Shown: positions 38,206-62,609 of the stretch, one piece after another | How the letters are laid out: the number at the start of each line of letters is the position of its first letter | How positions within the stretch are numbered: the stretch's first letter is position 1 | NCBI RefSeq assembly: GCF_001989455.1 | Contig: NZ_CP018346.1 | Span: 124,001-188,000 of the forward strand | Length of the DNA stretch: 64,000 bases | Reading direction: 5' to 3' | From: Prochlorococcus sp. RS04 | Lineage (GTDB): Bacteria; Cyanobacteriota; Cyanobacteriia; PCC-6307; Cyanobiaceae | The notes under the pieces: generated by a model | Seen by the model: the letters and a program-made list of their open reading frames with translations, nothing else | Told to the model about the DNA's origin: nothing | Database searches by the model: none | Program-made: the position numbers and the translations under genes

Positions 38206-39201
38206 TTATTTACCGATTCTTTTTACAGCAGCTCTTGACTTCTCAAGAATATCTCCTTTTAAGGGGACAAATCCAAGTGATGGAGCTTTATCTTGATACT
38301 CATCACTTAATAATGTATTAAAGGCTTGTTTGATAGCTTTAGTGTTTCTACCATTACCCTCTTCATAAGCAAGTATCCATGTTAATGAAGCTATAGGGTA
38401 TGCTCCTTTTGCAGTTGGATTAGGATTTTTACCAGCAAGATTCTCATCTAGAGTAATCCCATTAAGAGCCTTAGCTCCTGCTTCTACAGATGGTTTTAGA
38501 AACTCACCTGAAAGATTCTGAAGTGCAGCAGCTTTGACATTACCTTTTATGTAAGACTGGTTAACATAACCAATTGCGCCTGGAGTGTTTTGAATAACAC
38601 CTGCAACACCAGAATTACCTTTTGCTCCAACACCTGCTGGCCACTTAACTGATTTACCAGTTCCTAAAGTCCATGTTGGTGAAAATGCTGCCATAGAGTT
38701 TGTAAATGCTTTAGTTGTACCTGATCCATCAGAACGATGTGCCCAAGTTAACTTACCTGATTTACAGCCTAATTCTTTCCAATTTTTAACCATACCCATA
38801 GCAACCCTTACTGCTTGCTCTTGAGTAAGTTTCAAATCACAATCATAGTTATAACCGAAAGCAATAGTTCCACCAACCATTGGGATTTGAACTAAACCTC
38901 TGGTAACCTTTGCTATATCTTTATCTTTCATTGGATCATCTGATGCACCGAAGTTAACAGTTTGATCAATAAATGCTTTTCTTCCAGAGCCAGAACCAAC
39001 AGCTTGATAATTAACTCTTGGTCCACCTGAAGTGGCTAAATCTTTGAACCAACGAGTATAAATTTTGGCAGGAAATGATGCTCCAGCACCACTTAATCTT
39101 GTTCTAGCAGAAACACTTGTGCCAGCTACACTTGTACCAGCAGCAATGGCTACTACAGAAGTGAAAACCAAAGCTTTCTTAGCTATGTTCATGGTTGTCA
39201 T
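38206..39201 (-). CDS. pstS: phosphate-binding protein PstS
   Basis: The periplasmic binding protein for Pst phosphate import. A signal peptide (MNIAKKALVFTSVVAIAAG) precedes RLSGAGASFPAKIY, the conserved mature start, and the phosphate-binding SGSGRKAF and RSDGSGTTKAF motifs. I place the start at 39201 (ATG before the signal peptide); an in-frame ATG at 39246 would add 15 residues. The gene is separated from pstCAB and lies next to a porin in a shared, PHO-box-rich upstream region. Confidence 0.95.
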   Translation of the reverse strand: MTTMNIAKKALVFTSVVAIAAGTSVAGTSVSARTRLSGAGASFPAKIYTRWFKDLATSGGPRVNYQAVGSGSGRKAFIDQTVNFGASDDPMKDKDIAKVTRGLVQIPMVGGTIAFGYNYDCDLKLTQEQAVRVAMGMVKNWKELGCKSGKLTWAHRSDGSGTTKAFTNSMAAFSPTWTLGTGKSVKWPAGVGAKGNSGVAGVIQNTPGAIGYVNQSYIKGNVKAAALQNLSGEFLKPSVEAGAKALNGITLDENLAGKNPNPTAKGAYPIASLTWILAYEEGNGRNTKAIKQAFNTLLSDEYQDKAPSLGFVPLKGDILEKSRAAVKRIGK

Positions 39202-39288
39202 GATTAAATGTAAAGACTTCATATTTATAGCATTGGATACATGCACAAATACTCTTTAATTAAAAGTTTATCTTTTAATTAATTATTC

Positions 39289-39307
39289 CTTAAACTCTTC
39301 TTAAACT
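39289..39307 (+). promoter_or_regulatory. PHO box, pstS upstream region
   Basis: Two perfect copies of CTTAAACT (39289-39296 and 39300-39307) separated by CTT, an 11-bp period matching the cyanobacterial PhoB-type box (8-bp repeats with a 3-bp spacer). It lies between pstS and the porin gene, closer to pstS. Confidence 0.6.
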
Positions 39308-39472: not shown

Positions 39473-39491
39473 CTTACCCATTTCTTAACCT
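39473..39491 (+). promoter_or_regulatory. PHO box oriented toward the porin gene
   Basis: CTTACCCA-TTT-CTTAACCT; the second half-site matches the published consensus CTTAACCT exactly. It sits about 50 bp before the porin start codon. Confidence 0.65.
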
Positions 39492-39543
39492 AAATTCGTT
39501 TTTATTTATTTGGATTAATATCCATTTTTACGTGTTGAGGTTC

Positions 39544-40854
39544 ATGAAACTTTTTCAAAAATTAATTGCTGCTCCTGCCATCATTTCTTTGGCATCAGGT
39601 TTTGCAGTAAATGCAGCTGAGATCAATTCAACAGATCTTAGTGATTATACAAACTCTAACAATTTAGTATCTTTAGGTGATTTCAAATCAGATACCTTAT
39701 ACCCAGGAGATTGGGCTTACGATTCATTAAAGGATCTGACAAATAGCTCAAAATTCAATGGAAACTCAGTCTCTCGTTTAGAAGCTGCTGCTGAATTAAG
39801 TAATCTAATTGCAGGCGGTGAAGGCTTAATGAATGGAGCTGCAATAGATAGACTAAGCGATGAGCTTGGTTCTGAGTTGGCAATTATGAAAGGAAGAGTG
39901 GACGGCCTAGAGTCTCGTGTAAATACAATGGAGGCTGGCAGTTTCTCAGAAACTACTAGTATGAGTGGTTCAGCAGGGTTCCTAATAGGTGCAACTGATT
40001 CAGCAACTGCTACCAAGGATAAAGTTCAGTTTGAATACATCGTTGAAGTTGACTTAAATACTAGTTTCACAGGTGAAGATAAATTAAACATTGAGATTGA
40101 GACTGGAAATGGTTTAACAAATGTTGGTGCTGACAAGACTGGTTTAGACTGGGGTTCATCTAATGCTGATGAATTAAAGATTGACGACATTAACTACACT
40201 TTCCCATTAGGTTCTTGGACGGTGGCTGTTGGTGATTCTATGGATGCATCCAAGACTTGGCCTAATGCATGTGCCATGAATAACATGGTTGATAATTTAG
40301 GAGATTGTGGTGCTGCAAACTCTGTTGACTTAAGTGGTGATGTCTCATTCAGTGCCGCAACTGGATTTGGCGATGGTTGGGAATTTGGAATTGGTGCATC
40401 TAGCGATAGTGGCACAAATGGTCTTTTCACTAAGCAAAGTTCTGACGAATATGGACTAGCTATTGGTTATGAGACAGATGTATATGGTTTCACAGCAGCT
40501 TACTCTGATAAAGATACTGCAAGCTACTACGGTTTAACTGCCTTTTATAGCCCTGATTCAATGCCAACTACTTTAAGTGGTGGTTTTGAAACTGGTAATC
40601 CAACTACTGGGGAAGACACCACTCAGTGGGCTGTCGGTATAAGTACTGATTTAGGCGAAGGCTCATTAAGTCTAAACGTTGGAACTAATGGACAAGTGAA
40701 AGACAGTACCGAGGACATTTATGCCTATGATATTTCTTACGAATATCCAATCAACGACAGCATGAGTATTACACCTTTCGTTTACGTTTCTGAAACAAGA
40801 GGTACAACTGCTGATACTACTGGAGCTGGTGCGTTCGTATCATTCTCTTTCTAA
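39544..40854 (+). CDS. outer-membrane porin (SOM/PhoE-like) in the phosphate cluster
   Basis: A roughly 436-residue outer-membrane protein. The start at 39544 follows a GAGG ribosome site; a GTG four codons upstream is less likely. After a signal peptide ending FAVNA comes an SLH-like segment (DWAYDSLKDLTNSSKFNG...SRLEAAAELSNLI), a short coiled coil near residue 120, then a beta barrel ending with aromatic FVSFSF. This is the cyanobacterial SOM/OprB layout. Next to pstS and a PHO box it is likely the phosphate-stress porin called PhoE in Prochlorococcus. Confidence 0.88.
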   Translation: MKLFQKLIAAPAIISLASGFAVNAAEINSTDLSDYTNSNNLVSLGDFKSDTLYPGDWAYDSLKDLTNSSKFNGNSVSRLEAAAELSNLIAGGEGLMNGAAIDRLSDELGSELAIMKGRVDGLESRVNTMEAGSFSETTSMSGSAGFLIGATDSATATKDKVQFEYIVEVDLNTSFTGEDKLNIEIETGNGLTNVGADKTGLDWGSSNADELKIDDINYTFPLGSWTVAVGDSMDASKTWPNACAMNNMVDNLGDCGAANSVDLSGDVSFSAATGFGDGWEFGIGASSDSGTNGLFTKQSSDEYGLAIGYETDVYGFTAAYSDKDTASYYGLTAFYSPDSMPTTLSGGFETGNPTTGEDTTQWAVGISTDLGEGSLSLNVGTNGQVKDSTEDIYAYDISYEYPINDSMSITPFVYVSETRGTTADTTGAGAFVSFSF

Positions 40855-43710: not shown

Positions 43711-44871
43711 CTATAAATCTGTATTAAGACACGGAAAGATAGTTTCAATAATCGCTCCACCATCTTTATGATTAAATGCCTTTATAAAACCTTTATTGTT
43801 ATTAATTATTTTTTTTGTAATTGAAAGACCTAAACCACTTCCACTTTTCTTAAATTTAGTCCTTGATGGATCCCCACGATAAAAACGAGAAAAAATGTCA
43901 TTTGATTCATTTTCTTCTAATCCAATACCTTTATCTCTAACTCTTATAACAACAGAGCTATCTCTCTTAAAAATTTCAATTTGTATGCTCTCTTTTGTTG
44001 GGGAATAACGAATAGCGTTATCTAAAATATTTATAAATGCTCTTTTTAAATTTTCAATATCCCCAGATATATAATATTTTGTTGGAGAAAATAAATTTAT
44101 TTTTATATCCTTTTTTTCTGCGAGCGGTTTTATTGTTTGCCAAGATTCCATAATCAAATCTGAAATAGATATTTTTTTGTTTTTATTAAAATCTTCACTA
44201 CTTTCTAGCTTAGAAAGCTCTAAAGTCTCTTCGGCCATTTTTCTTAATCTTTTTGACTCTTTCTTAAGTCTCTTAACAAGATACCTATCCTTTTTTGATA
44301 CTACTGATTCAAGTCTTTCCCCAATTAAGATAAGTGATGTAAGAGGGGTTTTCAGTTCATGAGACACATCATTAATTAATTGATTTTGTCGTTTTTTTAT
44401 CGATTCAATTGATAATTTACTTTCCAATAATATTAAATAATTCTTTTTTCTTCCTCTAACAATATTTACCGAAATGGGTACTCCCGCAATTGTGAAATCA
44501 AGGTTGAATGGGAAATCTTTTTTTCTTAAATATAAAATTTTATTACTAAGTACTTCAAGCTCATTAATATCATTAATTGCTTTTCCAATAACATCTTTAT
44601 ATTTGATAATCCTAATAAGAGATAATGCTTTCTGATTGATAAATTTTATTGTCAGATCAGATGATAAGATAATCCACCCTTGCGATGAATAATCTAACCA
44701 AGACAACACTTCTTGAGGTCTAATTTTATCAAATGGGAAATCAATAGTTTTTTTATACTTATTTTTATCAACTTCAAATTTTTTTTCTTTTGATTGAGAA
44801 AAATGCTTGACTTTTATTTTCCATTTCTGATGTAAAAAAAATAATACTTCTTGTAGTGTTTTCATTTTCAT
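43711..44871 (-). CDS. phoR: phosphate sensor histidine kinase PhoR
   Basis: A 386-residue histidine kinase with a PAS-like sensing segment (about residues 50-150), the phosphoacceptor DVSHELKTPLTS near 170, and the ATPase motifs DNAIRYSP, RDKGIGL and SGSGLGLSI. It has no clear transmembrane helices, as in other Prochlorococcus PhoR copies. It overlaps phoB by 4 bp and should phosphorylate it at low phosphate. Confidence 0.93.
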   Translation of the reverse strand: MKMKTLQEVLFFLHQKWKIKVKHFSQSKEKKFEVDKNKYKKTIDFPFDKIRPQEVLSWLDYSSQGWIILSSDLTIKFINQKALSLIRIIKYKDVIGKAINDINELEVLSNKILYLRKKDFPFNLDFTIAGVPISVNIVRGRKKNYLILLESKLSIESIKKRQNQLINDVSHELKTPLTSLILIGERLESVVSKKDRYLVKRLKKESKRLRKMAEETLELSKLESSEDFNKNKKISISDLIMESWQTIKPLAEKKDIKINLFSPTKYYISGDIENLKRAFINILDNAIRYSPTKESIQIEIFKRDSSVVIRVRDKGIGLEENESNDIFSRFYRGDPSRTKFKKSGSGLGLSITKKIINNNKGFIKAFNHKDGGAIIETIFPCLNTDL

Positions 44872-45596
44872 CCAAACTTATAGCCAAAACCTCTAACAGT
44901 TTTAAGAAACTTTGGAGCTGAGGGATCTTCCTCTAATTTCTCTCTGAGCCACCTAACATGAACATCTACAGTTTTAGTATCACCAATAAAGTCAATTTCC
45001 CATATTTTTTCAAGTATTAAATCCCTTGACCATACTCTTTTTGGATTTTTCATAAATAACTCTAATAATTTAAATTCTTTTGGAGATAATGTTATTTCTC
45101 TATCAAAAGAAGTTACCCTACATTCTTCCAAGAACATTTTTATATGATCAAACTCGAGAACAGTTTTTGAGTTTTCTATATATTTTTTATTACGTTTAGA
45201 TCTTCTTATTAATGCTCTAGATCTAGCAATTAATTCATTTAAACCAAAAGGTTTTGTTAAATAATCATCTGCACCAACCTCTAATCCAAGAACCCTGTCT
45301 GATTCATTATCTTTAGCACTCAAAATTAGTATGGGTGTATAGTCTTCATCATTTCTTATTTTTCTACATAACTCTAATCCATTTAGTCCTGGCAACATTA
45401 AATCTAGAATTATTAGGTCAACATCTTTTTTAATATCATTATTAATAAAATCTAAGGCACTTAAACCGTCTTTGAAACTTGATACTTTGAAACCTTCGCT
45501 GATCAAGGTTTCACTGACAGTAAGCCTAATACTCTTATCATCCTCTACAAGAAGAATTCTTGAGTCTTGCAAACTTTTATGATCTTTAATAGCCAT
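44868..45596 (-). CDS. phoB: phosphate response regulator PhoB
   Basis: A 242-residue OmpR-type regulator. The receiver has the acidic pair ED near residue 18, the phosphorylated Asp in DLMLPGLNG near 64, and Lys in LTKPFGLNEL. The winged-helix output domain ends with KTVDVHVRWLREKL and TVRGFGYKF. It binds PHO boxes to switch on the surrounding pst, porin and probably phn/ptx genes. It is the first gene of phoBR. Confidence 0.95.
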   Translation of the reverse strand: MAIKDHKSLQDSRILLVEDDKSIRLTVSETLISEGFKVSSFKDGLSALDFINNDIKKDVDLIILDLMLPGLNGLELCRKIRNDEDYTPILILSAKDNESDRVLGLEVGADDYLTKPFGLNELIARSRALIRRSKRNKKYIENSKTVLEFDHIKMFLEECRVTSFDREITLSPKEFKLLELFMKNPKRVWSRDLILEKIWEIDFIGDTKTVDVHVRWLREKLEEDPSAPKFLKTVRGFGYKFG

Positions 45597-45703: not shown

Positions 45704-45722
45704 GTTAATTTTCCCTTAAACC
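45704..45722 (+). promoter_or_regulatory. PHO-like box in front of a candidate small RNA
   Basis: GTTAATTT-TCC-CTTAAACC, 11-bp tandem half-sites on the plus strand in the phoB upstream region. A TATATT hexamer follows at 45731-45736, about where a minus-10 box is expected behind a PHO box, and a perfect hairpin begins at 45741. Confidence 0.45.
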
Positions 45723-45740
45723 CTTTTATCTATATTTAGA

Positions 45741-45782
45741 TTGTCTCTTTAATCTTCCTCACACAAAATATTAAAGAGACAA
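45741..45782 (+). ncRNA. candidate small RNA hairpin with CU-rich loop
   Basis: A perfect 13-bp inverted repeat (TTGTCTCTTTAAT with ATTAAAGAGACAA) closes a 16-nt loop, CTTCCTCACACAAAAT. The loop resembles the ACUCCUCACAC core of the Prochlorococcus small RNA Yfr1, which blocks porin mRNA ribosome sites. A near-identical loop occurs at 62576-62590. A PHO-like box and minus-10 hexamer lie just upstream. No terminator is obvious directly after it. Confidence 0.45.
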
Positions 45783-45812: not shown

Positions 45813-45980
45813 CTAATATCCCATCGAAGTGTAATAATAATCGTCATCTTCATCTATATTTGTTACTACCCATTCTGGCGGAAAATCACCAATTTTTACA
45901 TATTGATAAAGCTTATCAACATCTGGATCGTAATAAGTATCATTGATTTTTGGATCTTTGACTACTTTGCTCGGATGCAT
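45813..45980 (-). CDS. small acidic protein, 55 aa
   Basis: A short frame MHPSKVVKDPKINDTYYDPD... rich in Tyr and Asp, ending DDDYYYTSMGY. It is soluble with no motif I know. The ATG at 45980 is the best start. Confidence 0.5.
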   Translation of the reverse strand: MHPSKVVKDPKINDTYYDPDVDKLYQYVKIGDFPPEWVVTNIDEDDDYYYTSMGY

Positions 45981-47101: not shown

Positions 47102-47253
47102 AATTTTATTAAAAACTACTTTTAAAGATTTTTTAAATATATCTTAAATCCGAACTTCTTTTTTTAATGTTAGTTTACTTCTACGTTCATCCAATTTATT
47201 TGGACGCATGATATGAGAATAGGGAACGGGATTCTCATTAACTGCATAAGATC

Positions 47254-47424
47254 ATGAATGAGCTCTCTCAAATAAGAGAAAAAATTACAAAAGCCAAGAG
47301 GCTTTATGAAGCCCAAATCTTGGCAACTAAAAATGGAGAAGTTACTCCATATAGAAGATCAGTCTTTGAAGAAAGAATTAGGGAAGCACAAAAAGAAATG
47401 AGATCGCAAGACACCAAAAAATAA
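47254..47424 (+). CDS. small helical protein, 56 aa
   Basis: A short frame MNELSQIREKITKAKRLYEAQ... consisting of two amphipathic helices with a GEVTPYRRS link. It is hydrophilic and probably cytoplasmic. Unknown family. Confidence 0.55.
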   Translation: MNELSQIREKITKAKRLYEAQILATKNGEVTPYRRSVFEERIREAQKEMRSQDTKK

Positions 47425-62563: not shown

Positions 62564-62609
62564 AGCTTCTACATTCTCCTCACACGAAATAGAGAAGCTT
62601 TTTCTTTTT
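62564..62609 (+). ncRNA. second candidate RNA hairpin with CU-rich loop
   Basis: A 7-bp stem (AGCTTCT with AGAAGCT, 62564-62570 and 62593-62599) encloses a 22-nt loop with TTCTCCTCACACGAAAT and is followed by a T-rich tail, like the end of a small RNA. The core CCTCACAC(A/G)AAAT is shared with the hairpin at 45741 and recalls the Yfr1 core. Confidence 0.4.

Follow-up and report, generated by a model that had tools for sequence, protein, structure and literature searches.

The window analysed here is a 64-kb stretch, spanning bases 124001-188000, of a Prochlorococcus genome that is complete at 1.656 Mb. A hairpin element sits within a phosphorus cluster of this window, together with the genes for PstS, a PhoE-type porin, a phytase-like esterase, a sensor kinase and the response regulator PhoB (Table 1). 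The phoB product is the likely activator of the candidate RNA gene described below. The 55-aa ORF upstream of phoB gave no match in a Pfam search, and different genes take its place in other strains. We considered whether the hairpin might lie in the leader of a plus-strand coding gene and rejected this, because the sole plus-strand ORF behind it is a TTG-start frame antisense to the 55-aa ORF. Elsewhere in the window, an aptamer of the glutamine-II riboswitch class (Rfam RF01704, 52.5 bits) is found at 47181-47238 on the plus strand, just 5′ of a 56-aa ORF (47254-47424).

Table 1. Features of the phosphorus cluster and of the hairpin element, in window coordinates.
Feature	Position	Strand	Remarks
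pstS	38206-39246	-	
PhoE-type porin	39532	+	Beside pstS
Ribosome site of PhoE-type porin	39532-39546	+	GTGTTGAGGTTCATG; poor loop match, possibly spared
Phytase-like esterase	41015	+	
phoR-type sensor kinase	43711-44871	-	ORF, read from sequence
phoB response regulator	44868-45596	-	Response_reg and Trans_reg_C domains; divergent from candidate RNA gene
PHO box	45704-45722	+	Two 8-bp units, GTTAATTT (45704-45711) and CTTAAACC (45715-45722), with 3-bp linker TCC; points to hairpin
-10 hexamer TATATT	45731-45736	+	8 bp behind box, 4 bp before stem
Stem, 5′ arm	45741-45753	+	
Predicted transcription start	45742-45744	+	Foot of stem; placed by the hexamer, 6-8 nt past it
Loop	45754-45769	+	16 nt, CTTCCTCACACAAAAT / CUUCCUCACACAAAAU; complementary to porin ribosome sites
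Stem, 3′ arm	45770-45782	+	13 perfect pairs with 5′ arm
55-aa ORF	45813-45980	-	Upstream of phoB; convergent with candidate RNA gene

The original prediction described a PHO-like box, a TATATT hexamer and a perfect 13-bp hairpin in this region, and all three are present as it had placed and spaced them. The hairpin is the sole perfect inverted repeat of at least 13 bp with a 3-20-nt loop in the window, and 12 dinucleotide shuffles of the window yielded either no or one such repeat each, none of them with at least four G/C per arm. The fold z-score is about -4.3 and is alike for both strands, and the coding strand therefore cannot be told by folding alone. The remark that no terminator lies right behind the hairpin was also borne out, as a search for a U-run behind the stem in the window revealed none on either strand. 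This absence counts against an RNA gene, yet a survey of 337 MED4 3′UTRs yielded just 11 significant terminators (PMC3898218), and the small RNAs Yfr10 and Yfr2 arise from a common 270-nt precursor.

PHO boxes in their published form consist of 8-bp units with 3-bp linkers, and the E. coli box lies 10 bp before a TAnnnT hexamer, while cyanobacterial units are CTTAACCT-like (PMC1906773). The layout of a PhoB regulon promoter (at least two 8-bp units joined by 3-bp linkers and standing some 10 bp ahead of TAnnnT) is found upstream of the hairpin, where the spacing is 8 bp. The same CTTAAACT units, phased at 11 bp, recur in near-identical boxes in the interval from pstS to phoE, at 39278-39307 (plus) and 39451-39422 (minus), so that the box beside the hairpin is of a genuine cyanobacterial type. 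With a third array at 39473-39491 (plus), the region between pstS and the porin gene carries three PHO-box arrays in both orientations, all made of 11-bp phased units that are CTTAAACT or CTTAACCT-like. The box beside the hairpin is oriented and spaced as would fit the activation of plus-strand transcription from the foot of the stem, and we infer that PhoB binds this box.

The phoB loci collected from 80 contigs and 25 whole-genome hits provided 69 distinct hairpin-bearing upstream versions, all from Prochlorococcus, and one element-bearing genome is taken here to be MED4, with the hairpin at 669218-669257 on the minus strand of its record. Box, hexamer, stem and loop (UUCCUCACAC) are kept across these versions. 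The TTAATTT..CCTTAAAC portion of the box is almost invariant, a TAnnnT hexamer lies exactly 8 bp past the box in 69 of 69, the distance from stem to hexamer is nearly fixed, and the loop core TTCCTCACAC hardly varies. A lack of stem and loop conservation in strains that keep phoBR had been named as a refuting result, and the outcome favours a small RNA: the hairpin is present in 92 of 109 phoB-bearing genomes, and several of the 17 others are interrupted by contig ends. The corresponding count otherwise is 3 of 157 (Fisher p = 2e-49), a genuine co-occurrence, though one that in part follows trivially from the genes being neighbours. A model search recovered the element in one of the 59 genera of the family.

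Changes in the stem are compensated. Two stem pairs alternate between U-A/C-G and C-G/U-A, a switch seen in 11-12 versions, and 27 double-changed cells were counted versus 9.9 +/- 2.2 in shuffled data (a value reached in 0 of 500 shuffles), although this contrast is not a probability because the versions are related. Slid controls gave 0-3 double-changed cells. The ten one-sided changes in the core stem create G-U pairs on the plus strand and C-A mismatches on the minus strand, and by our own count they represent about seven independent events, all in the same direction (sign test, p = 0.016). Since these changes yield G-U pairs on the plus strand only, this is the strand of the RNA.

The element is also an independent gene, because the box-promoter-hairpin unit is located away from phoB, at an unrelated locus, in three genomes: G178 (L198), G187 (L196) and G160 (L197). 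In G178, phoB is present on a different contig from the unit. No phoB hit was obtained in G187 and G160, one of which might lack it through genome incompleteness, and the loops of these two are altered (UUCCCCACAC and UUCCUCAAAC), which is what decay of the RNA without its activator would give. Conversely, five loci (L021, L024, L038, L073 and L105) are missing the cassette and retain the proximal phoB upstream DNA, of which 80 bp is kept at L021, L024, L038 and L105; phoB thus needs no cassette.

Several variants of the region were observed. At L017, L055, L056, L060, L100, L211 and L212 the PHO box and promoter are retained and the hairpin is swapped for an inverted repeat, TGTCTCCAA/TTGGAGACA, followed by an apparent partial tRNA copy, which suggests that a tRNA-targeting mobile element has inserted. 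The phoB upstream region of L059 carries the PHO box region in tandem duplicate, with two TTTAATTTGTCCTTAAACCTG-type copies. A third type of hairpin, with the related loop UUUCCUC[A/G]CACGUAG and no PHO box, is found at L195 (G111), L200 (G106) and L202 (G108), in genomes that gave no phoB hit.

A comparison with known small RNAs shows where the likeness proposed for the loop holds. The loop has TCCTCACAC in common with the Yfr1 core and agrees with it at 9 of 11 nucleotides, but it is not identical to that core. Yfr1 (RF01116) targets the same porin ribosome sites to which the loop is complementary; however, its motif is single-stranded and flanked by two stem-loops, a terminator closes the RNA and its expression is constitutive, whereas the candidate RNA displays its motif in the loop of a single hairpin and is expected to be induced by P stress. 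Neither the Yfr10 covariance model nor any other relevant Rfam family matched the hairpin at the gathering score or at E values up to 10. The Yfr10/Yfr12/Yfr18 RNAs (RF02362) of high-light Prochlorococcus resemble the candidate in presenting a CUCCUCACAC-like, Yfr1-type motif in an apical stem loop, for which both GUGUGAGG in target messages and Yfr2 can serve as pairing partners. In contrast, the 11-nt motif ACUCCUCACAC of Yfr10 is matched at 9 of 11 positions here (CUUCCUCACAC), its first two bases AC being CU; the Prochlorococcus extension CACACAC is missing; the promoter here has a PHO box; and no match to Cyano-1, the Yfr2 homologue beside true Yfr10, exists in the window. Separate Yfr10 and Yfr1 genes of this genome lie at G000:1537591 and G000:1509710, respectively. 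Because the defining sequence, context and Rfam tests failed, the candidate is a variant and not a member of Yfr1 or Yfr10, and 'Yfr1-type' applies to its pairing mode rather than to family membership.

Further parallels are provided by the enterobacterial RNAs MicF and MicC, which are stress-regulated and pair with major porin mRNAs where ribosomes bind. These share no homology with the candidate and belong to another regulator and organism, and no dependence on Hfq is assumed here. PsiR1 of Synechocystis 6803 is a cyanobacterial transcript induced by phosphate stress (PMC5386190), as would be expected of the candidate RNA, but PsiR1 is absent even from Synechocystis 6714, whereas the candidate is widespread in one Prochlorococcus genus.

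Copies of the loop with one mismatch pointed to two genes of this genome, G000:1441315 and 1444427, whose ribosome sites are the complement of the loop. Both are porin-like, with weak Pfam evidence: OprB fell just under threshold for one, and a Pfam search of the second gave no match. Their MED4 homologues, at 1065061 and 1068277, are presumably PMM1119 and PMM1121, as judged from position and start sequence. PMM1119 and PMM1121 are known targets of Yfr1, whose CUCCUCACAC motif pairs with their 5′ region (PMC6778093).

A pairing search of the loop against ribosome sites, as the original prediction had advised, returned porin sites as the best partners found. Both general porins have a ribosome site (GUGUGAGGAA...AUG) with which the loop pairs over 10-11 bp; their messages in this genome read GUGUGAGGAAAUUUAUG and UGUGUGAGGAAUUUUUAUG. 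The UU that sets the loop apart from Yfr1 contributes a further pair, to the AA that follows the Shine-Dalgarno sequence. As for Yfr1-type porin regulators, the complementarity is to GUGUGAGG at porin start sites; in the porin-bearing genomes examined the general porins retain this sequence ahead of the start codon, with pairing energies that run from about -14 to about -24 kcal/mol and fall mostly between -16 and -18.5, figures that leave out the opening of the stem. The sites of PhoE-type porins pair at -10.7 kcal/mol in most strains (GUGUUGAGGUU), at -13.5 kcal/mol with the standard loop in two strains (GUGUUGAGGAA) and at -9.5 kcal/mol in MED4, where the site is unrelated. When stem opening is included the gain shrinks: cofolding gives -9.8 kcal/mol for one general porin and -3.8 for the other, and -2.8 for PhoE. 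The TGTGAGGA..ATG sites of this genome that have a long ORF behind them are those of the two general porins only; four further sites were rejected as targets since their frames span just 7-21 codons. Conservation of the porin sites is no proof of their use by this RNA because Yfr1 targets the same sites. The porins are probably its main targets.

Co-change of loop and target is mixed across strains and is suggestive only. In G010, where the porin carries GGCAA and the loop UUGCC, the loop UUUGCCUCACA pairs with its own UGUGAGGCAA at -20.4 kcal/mol, compared with -16.1 for the standard loop. In G026 the loop CAGAAU lengthens the pairing to 14 bp, and CACAGAAU pairs with AUUCUGUG at -23.7 kcal/mol versus -18.5 for the standard loop. 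Elsewhere there is no gain or a loss, and in G024, G058 and G160 the standard loop would be a better partner than the one the strain carries.

The plus strand of the window holds a second hairpin whose loop is Yfr1-like (CUCCUCACACGAAA), at 62564-62599, with a terminator-type U-run from 62600. It is complementary over 13-14 bp, at -23.4 kcal/mol, to the start site of one general porin, is kept in 12 of 81 genomes of the genus, and is absent from Rfam and from the 2008 ncRNA list. MED4 is among the 12 genomes (1348987-1349113), and the loop of its counterpart, GCCUCACAC, fits GUGUGAGGC of MED4 PMM1121.

Other explanations for the conserved hairpin were weighed against these data. Its position between the 55-aa ORF and phoB, and the minus-strand U-run behind the stem in some strains (GCATTTTTA), would be compatible with a minus-strand hairpin that terminates the gene lying upstream of phoB or stabilises its 3′ end. 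This reading was rejected as quite improbable on the grounds of strand-specific pairing, as one-sided stem changes pair on the plus strand only, and of variable neighbours, as the upstream gene differs between strains and the loop is constant. There is also no U-run behind the stem in the window, copies of the hairpin occur in other contexts, and sequence conservation is not expected of terminator loops. The strand-specific G-U pairs speak equally against a hairpin in a minus-strand phoB leader, targeted by Yfr1 through GUGUGAGGA in the loop. The minus-strand loop is perfectly complementary to nine Yfr1-core bases and phoB lies 145 bp downstream, but the box orientation and spacing fit plus-strand transcription, some phoB genes retain the proximal region alone, and off-locus copies stand away from phoB; we regard such a leader as very improbable. 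Least credible is that the inverted repeat serves as a DNA operator for some regulator of phoB. Although the palindrome adjoins a regulator gene, G-U pairs are meaningless for a DNA operator, and the spacer between the arms is conserved as well as the arms themselves.

A further explanation accepts a PHO-controlled small RNA on the plus strand and assigns it a different main target, the 5′ motif of Yfr2, such that under P stress the RNA would titrate Yfr2 and free Yfr1 and Yfr10. The loop pairs with this genome's Yfr2 (Cyano-1, adjoining Yfr10 in L117) at -18.0 kcal/mol, which matches its pairing with the porins and is slightly better than the -16.9 of Yfr1 and Yfr10. Moreover, Yfr2 is known to pair with Yfr1 and Yfr10 and to relieve repression by Yfr1 (PMC6778093). 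However, the loop changes in G010 and G026 track the porin sites, and we judge Yfr2 to be an unlikely main target.

A small RNA gene with a PHO box on the plus strand is therefore a reading that we hold with considerable confidence. It gives the best fit to the computed anatomy, conservation, coding strand, independence from phoB and complementarity, particularly the strand-specific G-U pairs, the fixed spacing and the copies away from phoB; the transcript, its 3′ end, its control by phosphate and its effect on porins are what we infer from this fit. In the mechanism that we propose, the plus strand from 45741 onward would be a gene for a small RNA in high-light Prochlorococcus. Once bound to the box, phosphorylated PhoB would act as a class II activator and bring RNA polymerase to TATATT, and transcription would begin at the foot of the hairpin. 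The resulting RNA would display UUCCUCACACA in its 16-nt loop atop a 12-13-bp stem, and the loop would pair with GUGUGAGGAA of the two general porin mRNAs, a site whose AGGA, the Shine-Dalgarno sequence, stands a few bases ahead of the AUG, thereby barring ribosome entry as Yfr1 does. PhoE, itself encoded in the Pho cluster, may escape via its bulged site GUGUuGAGGuu, and the outer membrane would shift towards PhoE under P stress. That a PhoB-induced RNA of Yfr1/Yfr10 type silences the general porins and spares PhoE seems to us reasonably likely, and this is offered as a testable proposal.

Published expression data complicate this proposal. A microarray study of MED4 found no P-responsive ncRNA, which its authors called 'very surprising', and retained only probes more than 100 nt from genes (PMC2518516); in MED4 the hairpin is separated from one gene by 105 nt and from phoB by about 143 nt. 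In addition, one paper calls PMM1119 and its paralogue inducible by P limitation (PMC3898218). Simple porin repression clashes with P-inducible porins, and the RNA might instead fine-tune or activate their expression.

More tentatively, the locus could form part of a PhoB-driven porin switch in which PhoE rises, the constitutive porins are shut through the RNA, PhoE escapes by a one-base bulge, and loop and porin sites co-evolve. The hairpin at 62564-62599 might act likewise under another signal, in a set of Yfr1-like RNAs with their own promoters and one porin target site. We consider this extended scheme possible but on balance doubtful.

Prochlorococcus inhabits P-poor oceans and has few protein regulators. 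If our interpretation is correct, an RNA that is conserved beside phoB, carries a PHO box and pairs with porins by a defined rule would fill a gap in P-responsive RNAs and would provide a testable model for the remodelling of the outer membrane under P stress, in which one target motif is put under different signals through different promoters.
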